20,063 nt of DNA, from IMG/VR virus record IMGVR_UViG_3300025276_000279, positions 1 to 20,063 of that record. One strand, 5' to 3'. Shown here piece by piece: positions 2,876 through 17,430 of this stretch. Below the pieces are notes generated by a model. The model was not told the origin of the DNA. It saw nothing but the letters and a program-made list of their open reading frames with translations, and ran no database searches. The stretch's first letter is position 1, and each line of letters begins with the position of its first letter. The translations under genes and the position numbers were made by a program. The stretch is from a virus.

Positions 2876-3496
2876 ATGCCTACTGTACAAGTGGAGCCAA
2901 CAAAGGACCACAAAGTCCCCTACGATCTGTCTGAAGAGAAGTCAAAGACTCTCTTGGACGAGATGGCCGTCGCTGGTAATACAGCAGAGTTGCAAGAAGC
3001 ACTAGGTGCCTCACTTGATATAACCGAAGGTGATACAGCACGAGAAAAAGAACTCTTGCAAGCCGTTGCCGGGGCCAGAAAACCATCTAACCTCACAAAC
3101 CAAACCACCGCCTTTGCCGCTGCGGCTTTCCTGCGTACGTATGGCCAGCAACTTGCTATGGACGCCGTTCAGGCACGCGCTGCTATTACAAACAAGCTCA
3201 TGGAGATCGCTGACTGTGGCGACCCAAGGTACGAGCTAAAAGCACTTGAACTGCTAGGTAAGCATAGTGACATTGGCATTTTCACTGAACGCAGCGAAGT
3301 GACGATAAACTATAAGAATCCTGACGACTTAGAAAAAGCAATCAAAGAGCGCATAAAAACTTTGCTTAATGCTAGCGTAGTAGATGTAATGTCCCCAAGC
3401 GGGGCATCGGAAGAAGAGCTAGACGACCTACTAGGTGTAGTAGACATAGATGATGAGGATGAGGACTTAAATGCCGAACCAGACATCGCCATTTGA
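2876..3496 (+). CDS. terS: Terminase small subunit (probable)
   Basis: From the ATG at 2876 the protein has 206 residues beginning MPTVQVEPTKDHKVPYDLSE. It binds phage DNA ends and stimulates the large terminase in packaging, if the assignment holds. Support comes from position (directly before and 26 bases overlapping the large subunit), size, a helical N-terminal half, and the segment ALELLGKHSDIGIFTERSEV (about residues 123-142), a pattern I associate with small terminases of tailed phages. The C-terminal tail is very acidic (EEELDDLLGVVDIDDEDEDL). An upstream ATG at 2777 would add 33 residues read from the pyrimidine tract; I reject it. The ribosome site (GCGAAAAG) before 2876 is weak. 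No clear helix-turn-helix is readable by eye. Confidence 0.75.
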   Translation: MPTVQVEPTKDHKVPYDLSEEKSKTLLDEMAVAGNTAELQEALGASLDITEGDTAREKELLQAVAGARKPSNLTNQTTAFAAAAFLRTYGQQLAMDAVQARAAITNKLMEIADCGDPRYELKALELLGKHSDIGIFTERSEVTINYKNPDDLEKAIKERIKTLLNASVVDVMSPSGASEEELDDLLGVVDIDDEDEDLNAEPDIAI

Positions 3497-5006
3497 TAAC
3501 ATATCTCTTCAAGATATACCTAAAGTACTACCTCTACTCTCACAGACAGAGCAAGAGTTGGTACTAGCAGAGCTTGAGCAATTATCCAAGCTTAAGAAAC
3601 AAAGGAAAGCGCAGACAAAGTTCATAGATTTTGTCAATGCTGTTTGGCCTACGTTTATATCGGGGAAACACCATGCAAAGATGGCTGAAGCGTTTGAGCG
3701 AGTGGCTCGTGGGGATTGTAAGCGCCTCATTATTAATATGCCTCCTCGTCATACTAAGTCTGAGTTTGCTAGTTACTTACTACCTGCGTGGTTTTTGGGT
3801 CAATTCCCCCATAAAAAAATTATTCAAACGTCACATACCGCCGAGCTAGCGGTAGGTTTTGGTCGTAAAGTACGTAACTTAGTAGATACGGACAACTACC
3901 AGAGTATATTTCCTGAGTTAACCTTGCAAAGTGACTCTAAAGCAGCGGGAAGATGGAACACAAGCAGAGGGGGTGACTACTTTGCGATAGGTGTAGGTGG
4001 TGCGGTTACTGGTAAAGGTGCGGATTTGCTCATTATTGACGACCCACACTCGGAACAAGAGGCAGCATTAGCCGAAATAAACCCGGATATTTACGATAAG
4101 ACCTACGAGTGGTACACATCAGGTCCACGTCAGCGTCTACAACCGGGTGGAGCTATAGTTATAGTAATGACAAGGTGGTCGTTACGTGACCTGACATCTA
4201 AAGTGTTAAAATCTTCGGCCCAAAGGGGTGGAGAAGAGTGGGAAGTCATTGAATTCCCTGCTATTTTACCTTCGGGTAACGCGTTATGGCCTGAGTTCTG
4301 GCCTCCTGTGGAACTAGCAGCGCTGAAGGAAGAACTACCCAACAGTAAGTGGATGGCGCAGTACCAACAACAGCCGACATCAGAGTCTTCGGCTATTGTA
4401 AAGCGTGAATGGTGGCGTGAATGGGAAGAAGATGACCCTCCACCAGTGACTTTTATTGTACAAGCGTGGGATACGGCGTTCGAGAAGACAAATAGGGCGG
4501 ATTACTCTGCATGTACGACATGGGGAGTGTTCTACCACGCGGATGAAGACGGAGAAGAGCGGGCTAACCTGATACTTCTAAACGCTTTTAGAGATAGGAT
4601 GGAGTTTCCTACACTTAAGCGAGCAACTGTAGAGCAATATGACGAGTGGCAGCCAGATTCTTTAATTATTGAGAAAAAGGCTTCGGGGTCTCCTCTTATT
4701 TACGAGATGCGGGCGATGGGCATACCAGCGCAGGAGTTTACCCCCACAAAGGGTAACGACAAGATTACAAGATTGAACGCGGTATCGGATATGTTTGCGT
4801 CTGGTATAGTATGGGCACCAAACAGGTCTTGGGCAGAAGAAGTTATTGACGAGGTTGCTAGCTTCCCCGCAGGGGAACACGATGACTACGTTGACTCAGT
4901 GTCTCTTGCACTAGCGCGGTTCAGAAAAGGCGGGTTCATTCGATTGCCTTCGGACGAAAGGGAAGAAGACCCTATGTTTAGAAGGCGCAACGGCGGGTTT
5001 TACTAA
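3471..5006 (+). CDS. terL: Terminase large subunit (ATPase and nuclease)
   Basis: The 511-residue protein is the motor that pumps DNA into the prohead through the portal and cuts it. The ATPase half shows a Walker A-like loop PPRHTKSE (91-98), Walker B LLIIDDPH (186-193) and the MTRWS coupling motif (233-237). The RNase H-like nuclease half shows AWDTA (332-336, Asp334), IEKKASG (400-406, Glu401) and DDYVDS (471-476), so the acidic catalytic set looks intact. The length is typical of this family. The ATG at 3471 follows GAGGA and overlaps the small-subunit gene by 26 bases; the stop overlaps the portal start as TAATG, implying coupled translation. The packaging strategy (headful or cohesive ends) cannot be read from the sequence alone. 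Confidence 0.95.
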   Translation: MPNQTSPFDNISLQDIPKVLPLLSQTEQELVLAELEQLSKLKKQRKAQTKFIDFVNAVWPTFISGKHHAKMAEAFERVARGDCKRLIINMPPRHTKSEFASYLLPAWFLGQFPHKKIIQTSHTAELAVGFGRKVRNLVDTDNYQSIFPELTLQSDSKAAGRWNTSRGGDYFAIGVGGAVTGKGADLLIIDDPHSEQEAALAEINPDIYDKTYEWYTSGPRQRLQPGGAIVIVMTRWSLRDLTSKVLKSSAQRGGEEWEVIEFPAILPSGNALWPEFWPPVELAALKEELPNSKWMAQYQQQPTSESSAIVKREWWREWEEDDPPPVTFIVQAWDTAFEKTNRADYSACTTWGVFYHADEDGEERANLILLNAFRDRMEFPTLKRATVEQYDEWQPDSLIIEKKASGSPLIYEMRAMGIPAQEFTPTKGNDKITRLNAVSDMFASGIVWAPNRSWAEEVIDEVASFPAGEHDDYVDSVSLALARFRKGGFIRLPSDEREEDPMFRRRNGGFY

Positions 5007-7456
5007 TGGCTATTGAAAAAGGTTTATACGGCATGCCCGAGGGCATAGACGGAGAGTTGATGGGCGAGATGGGTCAACCTGACGCCATGATCGAAATGGA
5101 TATAGTTACGTCTGAAGACACGCCCATTATGATTGAGCTGGAAGATGGCGGTGTTGAGATTAACTTCGGGGAAGAAAATGAAGATATAGACTCGGCTCCG
5201 TTTGATGCAAACCTAGCCGACTACTTAGAAGACAGCCAGCTTCAAGAAATATCAAGCGAGTTGTGTGATGCTGTAGAAGGTGACATGGCGGCCCGACGTG
5301 ACTGGGCTGATAGCTATGTTGCTGGTCTTGATGTGTTGGGCATGAAATACGAAGAACGTACTGAGCCTTGGGAAAATGCTTGTGGGGTATATAGTAACAT
5401 TTTAGCGGAAGCCGCTATCCGGTTCCAAGCTGAAGCCATGAGCGAGACGTTCCCTGCCGCTGGGCCAGTAAGAACTAAGATTCTTGGAGAAATAACCCAA
5501 GATAAAGAAGACGCTGCCTTACGTGTTAAGACAGATATGAACTACGAGCTGACTGAGGTTATGGTAGAATACCGCCCCGAACATGAGCGGCTATTGTATT
5601 CACTCGGTTTAGCTGGTTCAGCGTTCAAAAAGGTGTATTTTGACCCCGGTATGGGGCGTCAGATTGCCTTATATATCCCTGCGGAAGACGTGATTGTACC
5701 CTACGGTGCCTCTAATATTGAGTCCGCAGAGCGCGTTACGCACGTCATGCGCAAGACAAAGAACGAAATGGTCAAGCTACAGGCTGCTGGATTCTATCGA
5801 GACGTGGAACTTGGCGACCCTATGTCGTTTTTCTCTGACGTTGAAGAAGCTAAGGCCGAGCAGTCAGGTGTATCTCTTACTTCTGACGACCGTTACACCA
5901 TGTTTGAAGTCCACGCTGACTTAAATATTGACGGTGTAGATGGGGCAGACACTGAAGAGTCTTTGCAAGTCGCAAAGCCTTATGTAGTAACGCTTGAGAA
6001 GGGTACGGGTGAGATACTAGCTATCCGTCGTAACTGGAACCCTGACGACGAATTGACGCTTAAACGTCAACATTTTGTACATTATGCTTATGTACCCGGA
6101 TTTGGATTTTATGGACTTGGACTCATTCACATTATTGGTGGCTACGCTCGCGCTGGCACTTCTCTCATACGTCAACTCGTGGACGCTGGAACCCTATCCA
6201 ATCTACCCGGAGGTCTTAAATCTCGCGGACTACGAGTTAAGGGTGACGACACCCCGATTGGTCCCGGTGAGTTTCGTGATGTAGATGTGCCGTCAGGTTC
6301 GATCCGCGACAACATTATGCCGCTCCCCTATAAAGAGCCTAGCCAAACCCTCTTTGCCTTACTTAAGCAGATCACTGAGGAAGGGCGACGCCTAGGGGCA
6401 ATCTCCGATATGAACATTTCTGACATGAGCGCAAATGCGCCTGTTGGAACTACTCTTGCGCTACTAGAGCGTACTCTCAAGCCAATGGCTGCGGTGCAAT
6501 CCCGTGTCCACTACTCGATGAAACAGGAGTTTAAACTCCTAAGAAAGATCATCGCTGAGTACGCCCCTGAAGAGTATATGTACGTGCCTGACCGTGGCGA
6601 GCCTCGTGCTAGACAAGCTGACTACGCTATGGTGGAAGTCATCCCCGTCAGCGATCCTAATAGCAGCACGATGGCACAAAGAGTTGTGCAATATCAGACT
6701 GTTATGCAGATGGCGCAGGCCGCCCCACAAATCTACGACTTGCCACAACTTCATCGCCAGATGATTGAGGTCTTGGGCGTTAAGAACGCCGATACACTCG
6801 TACCTGTTGAAGATGATATGAAGCCTTCTGATCCGGTCAGCGAGAACATGAACGTCATAGTCGGTAAACCGATTAAAGCGTTTATCTACCAAGACCACGA
6901 TGCGCACATCGCTACACACCAAGCGTTTATGCAAGACCCACAGATTGCAGCGTTTATAGGGCAAAGCCCCGCAGCGCAACAGGTCGTCACTGCTTTGCAA
7001 GCGCATATTGCGGAACACATAGGGTTTAGCTATAGACAACAAGTAGAAGCAAAACTTGGAGCACAATTACCAGCGCCCGGGGAGGAAATGCCAGATGAGG
7101 TAGAAAAGCTTCTTTCTCAAACTATGGCAAAAGCGGGAGTGCAACTTACTCAACAAAAGCAACAACAAGCAGCGCAAGCGCAAGCGCAAGCGCAACAACA
7201 AGACCCTGCATTTCAAATGCAACAAGCGGAACTACAACTCAAGCGAGGCGAGCAGCAGCGTAAAGTACAGAAGGATCAAGCAGATACACAGCTCGATGCC
7301 GCCCGCCTACAGTTGGATGCAGAAAAAGCTAAAACCACTGCTGCTATTGAAGCAAGTCGCGTAGCGGCGCAGAGCGAGCAGGCTAATGCAAAACACGACT
7401 TAGACGAGGCAAAAGCCATTTTAGACTTAGCAAAAGCTAACAGAGAGGGTAAATAA
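5006..7456 (+). CDS. Portal protein
   Basis: The 816-residue product forms the dodecameric ring at one capsid vertex through which DNA passes and to which the tail binds. The call rests on its position right after the large terminase, its size, and a central region of portal type (for example TEPWENACGVYSNILAEAAI near 119-138 and SETFPAAGPVRTKI near 146-159). The N-terminal 70 residues are very acidic. From about residue 712 the C-terminus is glutamine/alanine-rich and predicted coiled coil (LTQQKQQQ... then alternating AQ, then KAKTTAAIEASR), reminiscent of the helical barrel of long podovirus portals such as P22. Start and stop codons overlap both neighbours as TAATG. Comparison with P22 is structural inference, not sequence identity. 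Confidence 0.9.
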   Translation: MAIEKGLYGMPEGIDGELMGEMGQPDAMIEMDIVTSEDTPIMIELEDGGVEINFGEENEDIDSAPFDANLADYLEDSQLQEISSELCDAVEGDMAARRDWADSYVAGLDVLGMKYEERTEPWENACGVYSNILAEAAIRFQAEAMSETFPAAGPVRTKILGEITQDKEDAALRVKTDMNYELTEVMVEYRPEHERLLYSLGLAGSAFKKVYFDPGMGRQIALYIPAEDVIVPYGASNIESAERVTHVMRKTKNEMVKLQAAGFYRDVELGDPMSFFSDVEEAKAEQSGVSLTSDDRYTMFEVHADLNIDGVDGADTEESLQVAKPYVVTLEKGTGEILAIRRNWNPDDELTLKRQHFVHYAYVPGFGFYGLGLIHIIGGYARAGTSLIRQLVDAGTLSNLPGGLKSRGLRVKGDDTPIGPGEFRDVDVPSGSIRDNIMPLPYKEPSQTLFALLKQITEEGRRLGAISDMNISDMSANAPVGTTLALLERTLKPMAAVQSRVHYSMKQEFKLLRKIIAEYAPEEYMYVPDRGEPRARQADYAMVEVIPVSDPNSSTMAQRVVQYQTVMQMAQAAPQIYDLPQLHRQMIEVLGVKNADTLVPVEDDMKPSDPVSENMNVIVGKPIKAFIYQDHDAHIATHQAFMQDPQIAAFIGQSPAAQQVVTALQAHIAEHIGFSYRQQVEAKLGAQLPAPGEEMPDEVEKLLSQTMAKAGVQLTQQKQQQAAQAQAQAQQQDPAFQMQQAELQLKRGEQQRKVQKDQADTQLDAARLQLDAEKAKTTAAIEASRVAAQSEQANAKHDLDEAKAILDLAKANREGK
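7172..7195 (+). repeat. Hexanucleotide microsatellite (GCGCAA)4 inside portal gene
   Basis: Four exact GCGCAA units encode alternating Ala-Gln in the portal's C-terminal coiled coil, followed by CAACAA. The repeat is in frame (two codons per unit), so gain or loss of units would lengthen or shorten the coil without a frameshift. Confidence 0.9.
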
Positions 7457-10649: not shown

Positions 10650-11558
10650 ATGGCTATTTCAAGAGCGCAACTCCTTAAGGAGTTACTACCGGGTCTAAAC
10701 GCCCTATTTGGTCTCGAATACGAGAAGTATGGTGACGAGGCCGCTGCAATCTTTGAAACCGAGTCTTCTGATCGGTCTTTCGAGGAAGAAACTAAGTTGT
10801 CAGGTTTCAGTGCCGCACCTGTTAAAGGTGAAGGTTCTGCAATCGAGTATGACAATGCGCAAGAAGCGTGGACTGCTCGTTACACTCACGAGACAGTTGC
10901 AATGGGCTTCTCGCTCACTGAGGAAGCAATCGAAGATAACCTCTACGATTCGCTCTCTTCACGTTATACAAAGGCACTAGCCCGCGCTATGGCGTACACT
11001 AAGCAAACCAAAGGTGCTGCTATTCTTAACAACGCCTTTGCTGCCGGTACTACGTACGGTGATGGACAGCCACTATGTTCGACTGCTCATCCTCTCGTAT
11101 CTGGCGGTGTAAACTCAAACCGTCCTGCTGTTTCTGCTGACCTTAACGAGGCTTCACTAGAAGCTGCTGTTATTCAGATAGCTGGCTGGACTGATGAGCG
11201 CGGTCTGCTTATTGCATCTAAACCTACTAAGCTTGTTATCCCACCTGCGTTGCAATTCGTTGCTACTCGTTTGTTGGATACCAATCTTCGTGTCGGTACA
11301 GCGGATAACGACATCAACGCACTAAACAACAATGGTTCAATCCCGGGTGGTTACACAGTTAACAACTACCTGACTGATACCAATGGTTGGTTCTTGATGA
11401 CGGACATTCCTAATGGCCTGAAGCACTTCGTTCGCTCTGCTATGAGCACTAGCATGGACGCAGACTTCGACACAGGCAACAGTCGCTACAAGGCTCGTGA
11501 AAGATACAGCTTCGGCGTATCTGATCCATTGGGCATTTTCGGTTCACCCGGCGCTTAA
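10650..11558 (+). CDS. Major capsid protein (HK97 fold, Mu gpT-like)
   Basis: The 302-residue protein builds the icosahedral shell. It resembles the Mu gpT-type capsid proteins: an N-terminal region with GLEYEKYGDE (21-30), a central segment ATRYTHE-type TARYTHETVAMGFSLTEEAI (75-94), RAMAYTKQTKGAAILNNAF (112-130), the characteristic GQPLCSTAHPL (139-149), and PTKLVIPPALQFVATRLL further on. These points and the position after the scaffold and decoration genes make the call strong. AAGGAG precedes the ATG at 10650. Two tandem terminators follow the gene, a common arrangement that gives the capsid transcript a stable 3' end and separates its level from the tail genes. Whether the N-terminus is cleaved on maturation cannot be told. 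Confidence 0.9.
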   Translation: MAISRAQLLKELLPGLNALFGLEYEKYGDEAAAIFETESSDRSFEEETKLSGFSAAPVKGEGSAIEYDNAQEAWTARYTHETVAMGFSLTEEAIEDNLYDSLSSRYTKALARAMAYTKQTKGAAILNNAFAAGTTYGDGQPLCSTAHPLVSGGVNSNRPAVSADLNEASLEAAVIQIAGWTDERGLLIASKPTKLVIPPALQFVATRLLDTNLRVGTADNDINALNNNGSIPGGYTVNNYLTDTNGWFLMTDIPNGLKHFVRSAMSTSMDADFDTGNSRYKARERYSFGVSDPLGIFGSPGA

Positions 11559-13468: not shown

Positions 13469-13733
13469 AACCGAGAAGGGCAAGGCCCTAAAGCGGTGGT
13501 TCAAAGAGGACTGGAAAGACGTCAAGACAGGCAAGGCTTGCGGGCGTAAGAAGGGCGATGAACGGGGAACCCCGTACTGTAGGCCCACAAAACGGGTCTC
13601 TAGTAAAACGCCTAAGACCTCTGGTGAGATGACAGCGGCAGAGAAGAAGTCCCGTGTAGCGCAGAAAAAGCGCCTAGGGCAACCGGCAGGAAAACCTAAG
13701 CGTGTAGCTCCGCTTAAAAGGAAGAAGAAATAA
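13455..13733 (+). CDS. Small highly basic protein (92 aa)
   Basis: This 92-residue protein, from a GTG start at 13455, is about one-third lysine and arginine. It begins MAVRKTEKGKALKRWFKEDW and continues KDVKTGKACGRKKGDERGTP, YCRPTKRVSSKTPKT and a terminal KRVAPLKRKKK. The WFKExWxDVKTGKxCGRKxGExRGxPxCRPxKRVSxKTPKT pattern is one I remember in marine phages and some giant viruses, function unknown. Two cysteines (29 and 42) lie in the conserved core. Strong positive charge suggests DNA or RNA binding. GTG is used because no ATG lies near; the start overlaps the upstream gene by 14 bases and its stop forms TAATG with the next gene. Confidence 0.75.
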   Translation: MAVRKTEKGKALKRWFKEDWKDVKTGKACGRKKGDERGTPYCRPTKRVSSKTPKTSGEMTAAEKKSRVAQKKRLGQPAGKPKRVAPLKRKKK

Positions 13734-14437
13734 TGGCGACATCTGGCACAGCTACATTCAACATGGACTTCACCGAGATTGCGGAAGAAGCGTGGGAACG
13801 TGCCGGTCGAGAAATGCGTTCTGGCTACGACCTGCGCACTGCTCGTAGGTCTATGAATCTGTTAACTATTGAGTGGCAGAACCGTGGCATTAACATGTGG
13901 ACTATCGAGGAAGGTACGAAAAACCTCGTAGAAGGCACCGCTACATACGATCTGCCCGCCGATACAATAGACCTTTTGGAGCACGTTGTACGTACAGGTG
14001 ACGGTAGTATAACTACTCAGTCTGATCTAAACATCACGCGTATCAGCGTCTCTACCTATTCAAGTATCCCTAATAAGCTCTCTCAGGGCCGCCCTATACA
14101 ACTTTACGTAGACCGTGGACAAGCTAACCCCTCGGTTACTGTGTGGCCTGTACCGGACCAAGGGCCAGTAGGCGCACCTTACTACGTGCTCAAGTACTGG
14201 CGGATGCGCCGTATACAAGACTCGGGAACAGGTGTTAACACCGCCGACGTTAATTTTCGTTTCTTGCCCTGCCTCGTTGCAGGGCTTGCGTATTATATAG
14301 CACAGAAAGACCCAGAATTAATGCCTCGCCTACCTATGCTACAGGCGGAATATGAGCGCCAATTTGAGTTAGCCGCAGGAGAAGACAGAGAAAAAGCCAC
14401 GCTTAGCTTGGTGCCGCGTATACATGGCGTGAGGTAA
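13733..14437 (+). CDS. Head-tail adaptor / packaged-DNA stabilisation protein (probable, P22 gp4-like)
   Basis: The 234-residue protein begins MATSGTATFNMDFTEIAEEA and has a helical N-terminus (WERAGREMRSGYDLRTARRSMN, split by a turn), then LLTIEWQNRGINMWTIEEGT and a beta section with TYDLPADTIDLLEHVVRT. Near the end are FLPCLVAGLAYYIAQKDPEL and a helix with EYERQFELAAGEDREKAT. The helical start, WxNRGxNxW segment, YxLPxDxxDLxxxxxR strand and C-terminal Yxxxfxxa helix are what I expect of the P22 tail accessory factor (gp4) family, which binds beneath the portal and closes the head. Similarity is remembered, not measured. It starts in a TAATG overlap. Confidence 0.7.
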   Translation: MATSGTATFNMDFTEIAEEAWERAGREMRSGYDLRTARRSMNLLTIEWQNRGINMWTIEEGTKNLVEGTATYDLPADTIDLLEHVVRTGDGSITTQSDLNITRISVSTYSSIPNKLSQGRPIQLYVDRGQANPSVTVWPVPDQGPVGAPYYVLKYWRMRRIQDSGTGVNTADVNFRFLPCLVAGLAYYIAQKDPELMPRLPMLQAEYERQFELAAGEDREKATLSLVPRIHGVR

Positions 14438-14439
14438 GT

Positions 14440-15213
14440 ATGAGCTATACGTATGCGTCTGGGCAAAAAGCAATCGCAATATGCGATGTATGTGGTTTTC
14501 AGTACAGGTTACGGCAGCTTAAAGAGCTGATTGTTAAGGGGAATAAAACTAACATTAGGGCTTGTCCTGAGTGTTGGAATCCAGATCAGCCACAGCTTAT
14601 GCTAGGTACGGTCCCAGTGGAGGACCCGCAAGCTATACGTAACCCAAGACCGGACTCAGCAGAATTAGTAGCAAGCAGAGATATTCAATGGGGTTGGGAT
14701 CCAGTAGGGTTAAGTGACCCTTTTGGACTCACACCAGACAATTTAGAAGCCGTAGGCGTTGCAGGGCAAGTTACTGTACTAGCAAGCGGCGGAACGCCGG
14801 TCCCGGGTTCGGCGAATATAAATGTTTCAGGCGTAGGAGCCACGGCTTCCGTAGGATCAGTAACAGTAACAGTGCCTGCCATTACTACTTTTGCTATAAC
14901 GGTAGCTAATCCGGGCGTAGGAAACAGATATTATGTAAATGGCGTGTTGCAAGCCACACTAACTTTGAATGAAGGCAGCACATACAGATTGGACCAAAGT
15001 AACGGCAGTAATAGTAGCCATCCGTTGAGGTTTTCTACGACATCTGACGGAACACACGGAGGGGGTAGTGAGTACACTACTGGAGTAACTACTAGTGGAG
15101 TACCGGGTAATGCTGGAGCGTACACGCAGATAACTGTGGCAAGCGGAGCGCCTACTTTATATTATTACTGCACAAACCATTCAGGAATGGGCGGTCAAGC
15201 CAACACACCGTAA
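14440..15213 (+). CDS. Zinc-finger / cupredoxin-like fusion virion protein (257 aa)
   Basis: Three parts can be seen in 257 residues. Residues 12-50 hold a Cys4 zinc-binding set, CDVC (15-18) and CPEC (42-45). A linker (about 105-147) contains one unit (ANINVSGVGATASVGSVTV) of the same 22-residue repeat found eight times in 16502..17221. Residues 148-257 form a beta domain with a tail of YYYCTNHSGMGG. In that domain His194 (SSHPLRF), Cys244, His247 and Met250 match the His-Cys-His-Met order of type-1 copper sites in cupredoxins. From memory, such domains (SxHPLRFSTTSDGTHxGG) are common in marine phage structural proteins. Copper binding is inferred; the spacing Cys-x2-His-x2-Met is short but within cupredoxin range. 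The gene lies two bases after the adaptor gene. Confidence 0.75.
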   Translation: MSYTYASGQKAIAICDVCGFQYRLRQLKELIVKGNKTNIRACPECWNPDQPQLMLGTVPVEDPQAIRNPRPDSAELVASRDIQWGWDPVGLSDPFGLTPDNLEAVGVAGQVTVLASGGTPVPGSANINVSGVGATASVGSVTVTVPAITTFAITVANPGVGNRYYVNGVLQATLTLNEGSTYRLDQSNGSNSSHPLRFSTTSDGTHGGGSEYTTGVTTSGVPGNAGAYTQITVASGAPTLYYYCTNHSGMGGQANTP

Positions 15214-15223
15214 GGAAATCAAC

Positions 15224-15406
15224 ATGAAAATAAAGTCAAGATCGAACGTAAAAGTACCCAAGGTCATCGAGTTCCCAGATGAGCCTACTATGTATAAAGT
15301 GGACACTTGTAACCAACCGCCTAAAGATATGAAGACTAGCGGTATTAAGGTTCGCGGCGTAGGTGCAGCAACTAAAGGTACTATGGCCCGAGGCCCAATG
15401 GCTTAA
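15224..15406 (+). CDS. Small basic phage protein (60 aa)
   Basis: A 60-residue basic protein beginning MKIKSRSNVKVPKVIEFPDE and ending SGIKVRGVGAATKGTMARGP plus MA. AAGGAA lies six bases before the ATG at 15224. The final GIKxRGxGAATKGxxARGPMA is a pattern I remember from very short proteins in late operons of aquatic phages; role unknown. It lies between the cupredoxin-like gene and the connector-like gene and is closely spaced with both. The next gene's ribosome site (AAGGAG) begins at its stop codon. Confidence 0.75.
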   Translation: MKIKSRSNVKVPKVIEFPDEPTMYKVDTCNQPPKDMKTSGIKVRGVGAATKGTMARGPMA

Positions 15407-15416
15407 GGAGTAGCAG

Positions 15417-16046
15417 GTGAATTACACCGAGCTTAAGACAAATATTGAGGACATCTGCGAGCAGTCGTTTACGGATGACCAGCTTGCTATGTTTACTCAA
15501 CAGGCCGAGCAGAGTATATACAACACTGTTCAGATACCTGCATTACGTAGAAACCAGACGGGCGACCTATCTATTGGTAATAAGTACCTAGTCTACCCTA
15601 CGGACTTCTTGTACACGTTTTCTTTGGCGGTTATTGACGCTGCGGGTAACTATACGTATTTGCTGAACAAGGATGTTAACTTTATTCGTGAGGCATACCC
15701 CGGGCCAACAAGTACAGGCACTCCCGTACACTACGGAATATTTGACGATACAGCGTTTATCATAGGCCCAACGCCAGACGCTGCGTATAAAGTAGAACTA
15801 CACTACGGGTATTACCCTCAGACTATTGTTACTGCGGGTACTACGTGGCTTGGGGATGAATTTGATTCAGCTCTGCTTAACGGGGCACTTGTTCAGGCAA
15901 TACGTTTTATTAAGGGTGAACCAGATATGGTAGCCTTGTATCAGAAGATGTATGTAGACGCTATGGCGTTATTAAAGAACTTAGGCGACGGCAAGATGCG
16001 AGAAGATATGTATCGCTCTGGTCAACTTAGAATAGAACCGCGTTAA
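15417..16046 (+). CDS. Connector / tail structural protein (probable, 209 aa)
   Basis: The 209-residue protein starts with GTG at 15417, chosen because AAGGAG lies six bases upstream. It begins MNYTELKTNIEDICEQSFTD. A helical N-terminus (DDQLAMFTQQAEQSIYNTVQ) leads to beta segments with LVYPTDFLYTFSLAVIDAAG and LLNKDVNFIREAYPGP, then helices (ALVQAIRFIKGEPDMVALYQ) and a tail YRSGQLRIEPR. This layout of helices, a YPxDFL strand and a C-terminal helical pair is what head-to-tail connector or tail-tube A-like adaptors show. I know similar sequences in marine phages, usually unannotated or called tail proteins. It is the second adaptor-like gene after 13733..14437, so it may form the next ring of a short tail. 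Confidence 0.65.
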   Translation: MNYTELKTNIEDICEQSFTDDQLAMFTQQAEQSIYNTVQIPALRRNQTGDLSIGNKYLVYPTDFLYTFSLAVIDAAGNYTYLLNKDVNFIREAYPGPTSTGTPVHYGIFDDTAFIIGPTPDAAYKVELHYGYYPQTIVTAGTTWLGDEFDSALLNGALVQAIRFIKGEPDMVALYQKMYVDAMALLKNLGDGKMREDMYRSGQLRIEPR

Positions 16047-16501: not shown

Positions 16502-17221
16502 GTGGCTGACGGATGGGGTCGTGACACTTGGAGTTCAGGCTCTTGGGGTGAAGGAGTTGATACAACCGTCCGATTGGGTGGTTGGGGACGTGCCTCGTGG
16601 GGCGCTGGAGGTTGGGGAGAATCCCTAGGCATTCAAGCTGTTGGCTCCGTTGGCTCTGTTACTGTAGCCGCTAATGCCGTAGTTAATGTTACGAGCGTCA
16701 TTGGTACTACTGCTCTTGGTAGTGTAGCTGTAAGTGGAGATGCTAGTAATATCGGAGTGCTGGGCAACGCGGCAACTGGCACGTTAGGGACGGTAACAGT
16801 ACAAGCAAAGGCAACTGTCTCAGTGACAGGTGTTGCGGCTACAACAGCCGTAGGCAACGCCAACGTCCAACAAGGCGCAGGAACTTCCCCAACAGGCGTT
16901 GTAGGAACTACGGCACTAGGTGTAGTAACGGTAATCGGAAAAGCAAATGTACCAGCGACGGGCCTACTTGCTACATCAGCTTTAGGTACTGTAACGGTAC
17001 TACTGCAACAAAAGGTTAACGTAACAGGCGTTCAAGGCACTGCGGCATTAGGCCAGACAACTGAAACAGGCTCTGCCATAGTTAACGCGGTAGGCGTACA
17101 GGGCACGGGTCAAGTCGGAACAGTATTAGTCTGGAGTCAAATAGTTCCGGGCGGTGATCCTAAATGGACTGACATTGCCCCTATTAGTCAAACCCCTACG
17201 TGGACGGATATAGCAGCATGA
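16502..17221 (+). CDS. Repeat protein, eight 22-residue beta repeats (239 aa), virion-type
   Basis: Translation from GTG 16502 gives 239 residues. Residues 1-40 carry paired Trp-Gly motifs (GWGRDTWSSGSWGE, then GWGRASWGAGGWGE). Residues 41-213 are about eight units of 22 residues with consensus AxVxVTGVxGTTALGxVTVxxx. The C-terminus has two copies of WTDIA (222-226 and 234-238). This looks like an elongated beta solenoid or fibrous stalk. One copy of the repeat also occurs in 14440..15213. No clear ribosome site precedes the GTG, three bases after the previous stop, so re-initiation by ribosomes leaving that gene is probable. The last codons overlap the next start as ATGA. A tail fibre or spike stalk is the best guess; the family is not assigned. 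Confidence 0.7.
   Translation: MADGWGRDTWSSGSWGEGVDTTVRLGGWGRASWGAGGWGESLGIQAVGSVGSVTVAANAVVNVTSVIGTTALGSVAVSGDASNIGVLGNAATGTLGTVTVQAKATVSVTGVAATTAVGNANVQQGAGTSPTGVVGTTALGVVTVIGKANVPATGLLATSALGTVTVLLQQKVNVTGVQGTAALGQTTETGSAIVNAVGVQGTGQVGTVLVWSQIVPGGDPKWTDIAPISQTPTWTDIAA
16622..17140 (+). repeat. Eight tandem 22-codon units in the 16502..17221 repeat protein
   Basis: Units can be aligned as ending in, for example, TALGSVAV, GTLGTVTV, TAVGNANV, TALGVVTV, SALGTVTV, AALGQTTE and GQVGTVLV. The unit length is mostly 22 residues (66 bases), with the third unit one residue longer. The DNA has diverged between units, so the array is old rather than a recent slippage product. Confidence 0.75.
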
Positions 17222-17430
17222 AAACAACAAACGAAGCACAAAACTTGGGGAGCACAATAGACCCAAAGCATGAAATTGAAGTGTTATGCAGTAACTGCGG
17301 GTACGATATAGATGAGGCGGAACTAATGGCCGATACTTGCTCTGGTTGTGGTAACACCCTAAACTTGCGTCAGAATACAAAGATTTACGCGACAAGCCTT
17401 CCCGCCGCTGGCGGCAGCACGTTAGTGTAG
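17218..17430 (+). CDS. Small zinc-ribbon protein (70 aa)
   Basis: The product from the ATG at 17218 has 70 residues beginning MKTTNEAQNLGSTIDPKHEI. Two pairs, CSNC (residues 24-27) and CSGC (43-46), are spaced by 15 residues like a rubredoxin-type zinc ribbon, with GYDIDEAELMADT between them. The tail LNLRQNTKIYATSLPAAGGS is unstructured. A GTG at 17200 would extend it by six residues, but the ATG overlaps the previous stop as ATGA and is preferred. It is the second metal-binding small protein among late genes (compare the N-terminus of 14440..15213). Role unknown; such ribbons may mediate protein contacts in the virion or fibre assembly. Confidence 0.75.
   Translation: MKTTNEAQNLGSTIDPKHEIEVLCSNCGYDIDEAELMADTCSGCGNTLNLRQNTKIYATSLPAAGGSTLV

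Follow-up and report, generated by a model that had tools for sequence, protein, structure and literature searches.

In cells, blue-copper-type domains are found in electron carriers and oxidases. Of the described systems, the cupredoxins of the plastocyanin/azurin superfamily (2dv6, rusticyanin, amicyanin) are like the phage domain reported here in predicted fold and in the order of a His...Cys-His-Met ligand set. Unlike the cellular cupredoxins, the phage domain is fused to a protein of the head-tail region, and its copper site is putative. Metals have also been placed in phage tails by the Ferrojan (Trojan horse) hypothesis, in which iron occupies HxH sites of phage fibres such as T4 gp37 (PMC11705849). 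The likeness to that idea is a metal ion in a phage tail protein, possibly serving receptor engagement (PMC11705849), with a bound metal that is presumptive in our case; the difference is that iron is held at fibre HxH sites there, whereas a globular cupredoxin domain with Cys, His, His and Met is found here. Ig-like display domains on phage structural proteins are likewise optional, appended β-sandwiches, but they have another fold, and it is the cupredoxin-like domain that has the conserved metal ligand set. An Ig-like annotation has been given to some relatives of the domain (MED4-213, and P-HM2 in a PF07686 note). Furthermore, PHROG 27200, 30742, 693, 708 and 677, which are families of tail fibre, baseplate wedge and unknown function, match parts of residues ~112-255 and thus have homologous stretches in common with the domain, although most of their members are fibre or baseplate proteins of much greater size, with no copper annotation.

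Here, we analysed the gene at 14440..15213 (+) of a window of 20,063 bases that is an entire virus record. The gene has an ATG start and encodes 257 amino acids, arranged as an N-terminal Cys4 domain, a linker with a repeat, and a cupredoxin-like domain; relatives have the same architecture. It lies between two SU10-type adaptor-like genes. The upstream neighbour (13733..14437, +) matches Pfam SU10_adaptor, PF24175, with an E-value of 1.8e-12. The downstream neighbour (15417..16046, +), which is a different protein, matches the same model with an E-value of 6.6e-21 and also matches PHROG 2941, a virion structural protein. Pfam and PHROG further assign a terminase (3471-5006), a portal (5006-7456) and a major head protein (10650-11558) in the window. 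Relatives of the N-terminal part are encoded immediately 3' of genes annotated 'portal-adaptor protein' in Planktothrix phage Pag-Yong1, 'tail adaptor' in Roseobacter phage CRP-902 and 'Pam1 adaptor protein' in phage DSL-LC04. Given the adaptor-like neighbours and the place of these relatives directly after adaptor genes, the product likely belongs at the head-tail connector position. The position in the structural module, beside adaptor genes, is accompanied by structural homologues, namely the PHROG tail families and the annotated proteins of phage isolates, and from gene position and relatives' annotation we infer that the product would be present in the particle.

The conserved N-terminal domain comprises residues 1-73 (14440..14658, +). 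It contains Cys15, Cys18, Cys42 and Cys45 in a CxxC-x23-CxxC arrangement, followed by a conserved Pro/Arg-rich arm that includes D62 and R70, and its invariant residues are A6, D16, G19, Q52 and R70. In the model of residues 1-149, the segment ~11-50 has a pLDDT of about 84-93 and the rest is lower, residues 51-149 being mostly of low confidence. The putative N-terminal zinc set of the original prediction is real in this protein, but it is not general: of 64 unique full-length relatives, 32 have all four cysteines and the others carry SSGE, CTGV or CSGQ there. Fold matches of this domain are weak; FYVE and Csm zinc regions reach a Z of at most 3.8, and a name taken from them was dropped for that reason. 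Elsewhere in the window, a separate 76-residue zinc-ribbon-like protein (CSNCGYD...CSGCGN; 17200-17430, +) has only weak zinc-ribbon Pfam matches and is kept in the same place in the related contigs L022 and L183.

The N-terminal and C-terminal domains are joined through a segment in which a repeat unit had been proposed. It is present as one copy of a ~20-residue β-repeat (VSGVGATASVGSVTVTVPAI; residues 129-148; 14824..14883, +), identified from the sequence and by a pattern scan. The pattern is VTGVxGTxxxGxVTV, and the number of copies differs among relatives. Another open reading frame of the window, 16502-17221 (+), has at least 5 copies of a ~22-residue VTGVxGTTALGxVTV repeat, which is the same unit; these copies are preceded by W/G-rich repeats (GGWGRASWGAGGWGES), and the protein has no family match.

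The cupredoxin-like domain consists of residues 148-257 (14881..15210, +). The AlphaFold2 model of residues 146-257, computed with 26 relatives in the input, has a mean pLDDT of 95.1 and a pTM of 0.86. In this model, one strand is preceded by His194, another ends at Cys244, and the loop before the last strand holds His247 and Met250. The top Foldseek matches in the PDB are rusticyanin, the cupredoxin domain of Hyphomicrobium denitrificans nitrite reductase, plastocyanin, AcoP and pseudoazurin. With VIA-align, the best match is 2dv6, the N-terminal cupredoxin domain of the Hyphomicrobium nitrite reductase, with a Z of 9.2 over 97 residues at 2.5 Å, and rusticyanin (2cal) aligns with a Z of 8.3. 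The margin of the best match over those at Z 7-8 is modest, and these are copper proteins too. The PDB fold matches also include 3fs9, an azurin with a CAAHAAM loop, which has the C-x2-H-x2-M spacing. Both the model and the PDB fold matches correspond to the Greek-key β-sandwich of cupredoxins. The C-terminal domain is therefore predicted to have a cupredoxin-like fold, as the original prediction had claimed; in the comparison with plastocyanin and azurin folds that it proposed, the best PDB matches are cupredoxins.

The sequence has diverged far from the cellular proteins, with about 10-22% identity. Neither the domain nor its profile had a significant match among PDB sequences, and no Pfam model matches the domain. 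At E<=10, nothing in the window is matched by PF00127, Copper-bind (curated cut-off 21.2 bits), and of 27 relatives only 2 give a match, both weak (best E 0.11). The link to cupredoxins was therefore made by fold. When the domain was compared by hhalign with profiles of cellular cupredoxins collected in the same analysis, the pseudoazurin-like and CopC_like_cup groups scored above all 150 column-shuffled controls, and all four ligands aligned for one group, CopC_like_cup. Kinship to true azurins is not claimed, as the hhalign score was not significant and 14 of 150 shuffles scored as high.

The four cysteines of the N-terminal domain and His194, Cys244, His247 and Met250 were all found where the original prediction had placed them. 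The first putative metal ligand, His194 (15019..15021, +), aligns with the cupredoxin histidine and is kept in 122 of 126 unique domains, drawn from viral contigs, phage isolates and marine genome bins. It is followed by a proline, at a place where cupredoxins often have asparagine. The other three ligands lie in the loop C244-T-N-H247-S-G-M250 (15169..15189, +), a C-x2-H-x2-M motif of the same length as the amicyanin loop. The cupredoxin-like domain has a single cysteine and a single methionine. Chance seldom produces the order H-x49-C-x2-H-x2-M: when the same 112 residues were shuffled 200,000 times, H-x35-65-CxxHxxM arose in 13 of the shuffled sequences. Conservation among homologues is by far the stronger test. 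All four ligands are kept together in 120 of the 126 domains, as are the C, H and M of the loop, so the ligands are family-conserved in the His...Cys-xn-His-xn-Met order of type-1 copper sites. These domains are not 126 independent trials, and the losses stem from few lineages. The pattern of the first viral scan included C244 and H247 and was hence biased towards the ligands. N-terminal queries, which cannot favour the ligands, recovered C-x2-H-x2-M in 29 of 29 cupredoxin domains; a tblastn search of phage isolates is likewise free of this bias. The loop itself has 43 different fillings among the 126 domains, and it is therefore the ligands, not the loop, that are conserved.

The six exceptions have each lost three of the four ligands, and single or double losses are seen in none of the 126 domains. 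In the PSS2 clade (PSS2 gp080, L164, L165, L166), both histidines and the cysteine are gone and the methionine is kept; in P-RSM6 and S-SZBM1, the first histidine is kept and the other three ligands are gone. Strict invariance of the ligands among homologues thus fails in these six, while their co-conservation in the remainder holds, and losses of three at once fit the loss of a metal site, not the absence of one. From the ligand pattern and the modelled fold, we consider it likely that the site holds copper. An unlikely alternative is a real metal site that is not type-1 copper and that stabilises the displayed domain in seawater with Zn, Ni or Cu(I). That the four residues are conserved as a block demonstrates a retained site and says nothing about the identity of its metal, and other phage fibres have been reported with metals, such as iron at the HxH motifs of T4 gp37 (PMC11705849); however, the closest folds belong to copper proteins, and with this topology His...Cys-x2-His-x2-Met is the ligand set of type-1 copper. 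Still less probable is a metal-free β-sandwich adhesion domain of cupredoxin descent, whose four residues would be kept for packing or hydrogen bonding. The ligand-less natural relatives, which include the 112-residue PSS2 gp080, P-RSM6, S-SZBM1 and L164-L166, show that the fold can persist without the site, but packing alone would be expected to give the single losses that the 126 sequences lack, and the residues between the ligands vary freely.

The C-terminal part of the protein is gained and lost as a unit. Blastn alignments of the window to close relatives (L022, L026, L071, L177, L183 and others) end at ~14778 and restart at 15213-15227, with 73-91% identity. The segment 14779..15212 (+), which holds the end of the linker, the repeat and the cupredoxin-like domain, thus has fixed boundaries in a group of close relatives, some of which have it and others not. 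With residues 1-87 as query, 80 loci were found, of which 79 stop at residue 112-117, and no cupredoxin is encoded elsewhere within the fetched flanks of these 79. By these sequence comparisons, the cupredoxin domain is an accessory module. Two other clades of the N-terminal domain, made of distinct proteins, comprise 28 with a cupredoxin domain, 56 with the N-terminal domain alone and 24 with other tails. Among the last, ten have a linker only, and 12 share a TFDSTSxTLDSTxxTFDEG-like ending, an alternative C-terminal module (L271, L277, L278, L282, L284, L301, L308, L310, L333, L334, L337, L341). Tandem pairs of cupredoxin domains occur in L080, L103 and L171-L173, and in L068 and L167 a cupredoxin domain is also found in a second gene of the same contig. 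That close relatives keep the N-terminal domain and lack the module at exact boundaries speaks against a structural role in the particle, and makes the earlier suggestion that the metal-loaded domain stabilises it unlikely for this protein. Copper sensing, also suggested, has no specific support.

The domain is widespread, in agreement with the expectation that many copies exist in marine phages. Tblastn over phage isolates found it in 67 records, which include cyanophages, pelagiphages and Methylophilales phages, and the proteins that bear it are annotated as tail fibre, virion structural, baseplate wedge or hypothetical. Fold matches in BFVD include the putative T4-like proximal tail fibre of P-SSM2 (Q58M57), baseplate wedge tail fibre connectors, and an MED4-213 protein annotated 'immunoglobulin domain'. 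In the same database, two giant-virus 'beta-sandwich proteins', A0A481Z6J5 (Pithovirus LCPAC302) and A0A481YVH3 (Marseillevirus LCMAC201), match the domain model with a Foldseek E-value of 1.2e-05. Relatives of the domain were also seen in SAR11 and Actinomarina genome contigs (L107-L109, L112, L113, L118, L120-L128), which are possibly proviruses or co-sorted phages. In the non-subscription literature searched, no paper was found that pairs cupredoxin with a phage tail fibre, or a plastocyanin-like domain with a cyanophage structural protein; papers that combine phage with cupredoxin and structural protein, or with blue copper and tail, appear unrelated from the parts available. We therefore found no report, within that literature, of this domain on phage virion proteins.

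On balance, we favour a virion protein of the head-tail region in which an optional display module, with a type-1-like copper site and a host-contact role, is joined to a conserved N-terminal anchor. The anchor would comprise residues 1 to about 110, which are common to all relatives and are encoded beside the adaptor genes in the operon. The β-repeat stalk and the C-terminal cupredoxin domain would form the module and point outwards, which would place the domain on the outside of the particle. His194, Cys244, His247 and Met250, with the short C-x2-H-x2-M loop, would build a type-1-like mononuclear copper site. Most likely, the copper-loaded domain would aid the engagement of the host envelope by the particle, perhaps because it docks to a partner at the surface or in the periplasm, or because it keeps scarce copper at the contact site. 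Host contact itself, suggested by the tail-fibre homologues, is a tentative assignment that we hold to be somewhat less than an even chance. The module would be swapped among the neck, fibre and baseplate proteins of unrelated marine phages. A redox-active domain with an auxiliary role in electron transfer or oxidant quenching rather than adhesion is very improbable: electron carriers such as rusticyanin and plastocyanin are among the fold neighbours, but no partner gene is evident and the domain is found as a swapped module in tail fibres and connectors, where adhesion modules usually reside.

The favoured reading, a displayed copper module on an anchored virion protein, could be carried further. 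It is conceivable, though rather doubtful, that a swappable cupredoxin module loaded with copper is common to several families of marine phages, which would carry it on their necks, fibres and baseplates to recognise host-surface proteins that handle copper or are redox active. Such a module would parallel, for copper, the Trojan-horse idea for iron, and would form a protein-bound copper pool in seawater. Many 'hypothetical' or 'immunoglobulin-like' tail regions gain a new annotation, and the domain is small and suited to direct expression and assay. A portable virion module with intact, co-conserved ligands in phages of Prochlorococcus, Synechococcus, SAR11 and methylotrophs would tie adsorption to trace-metal chemistry.
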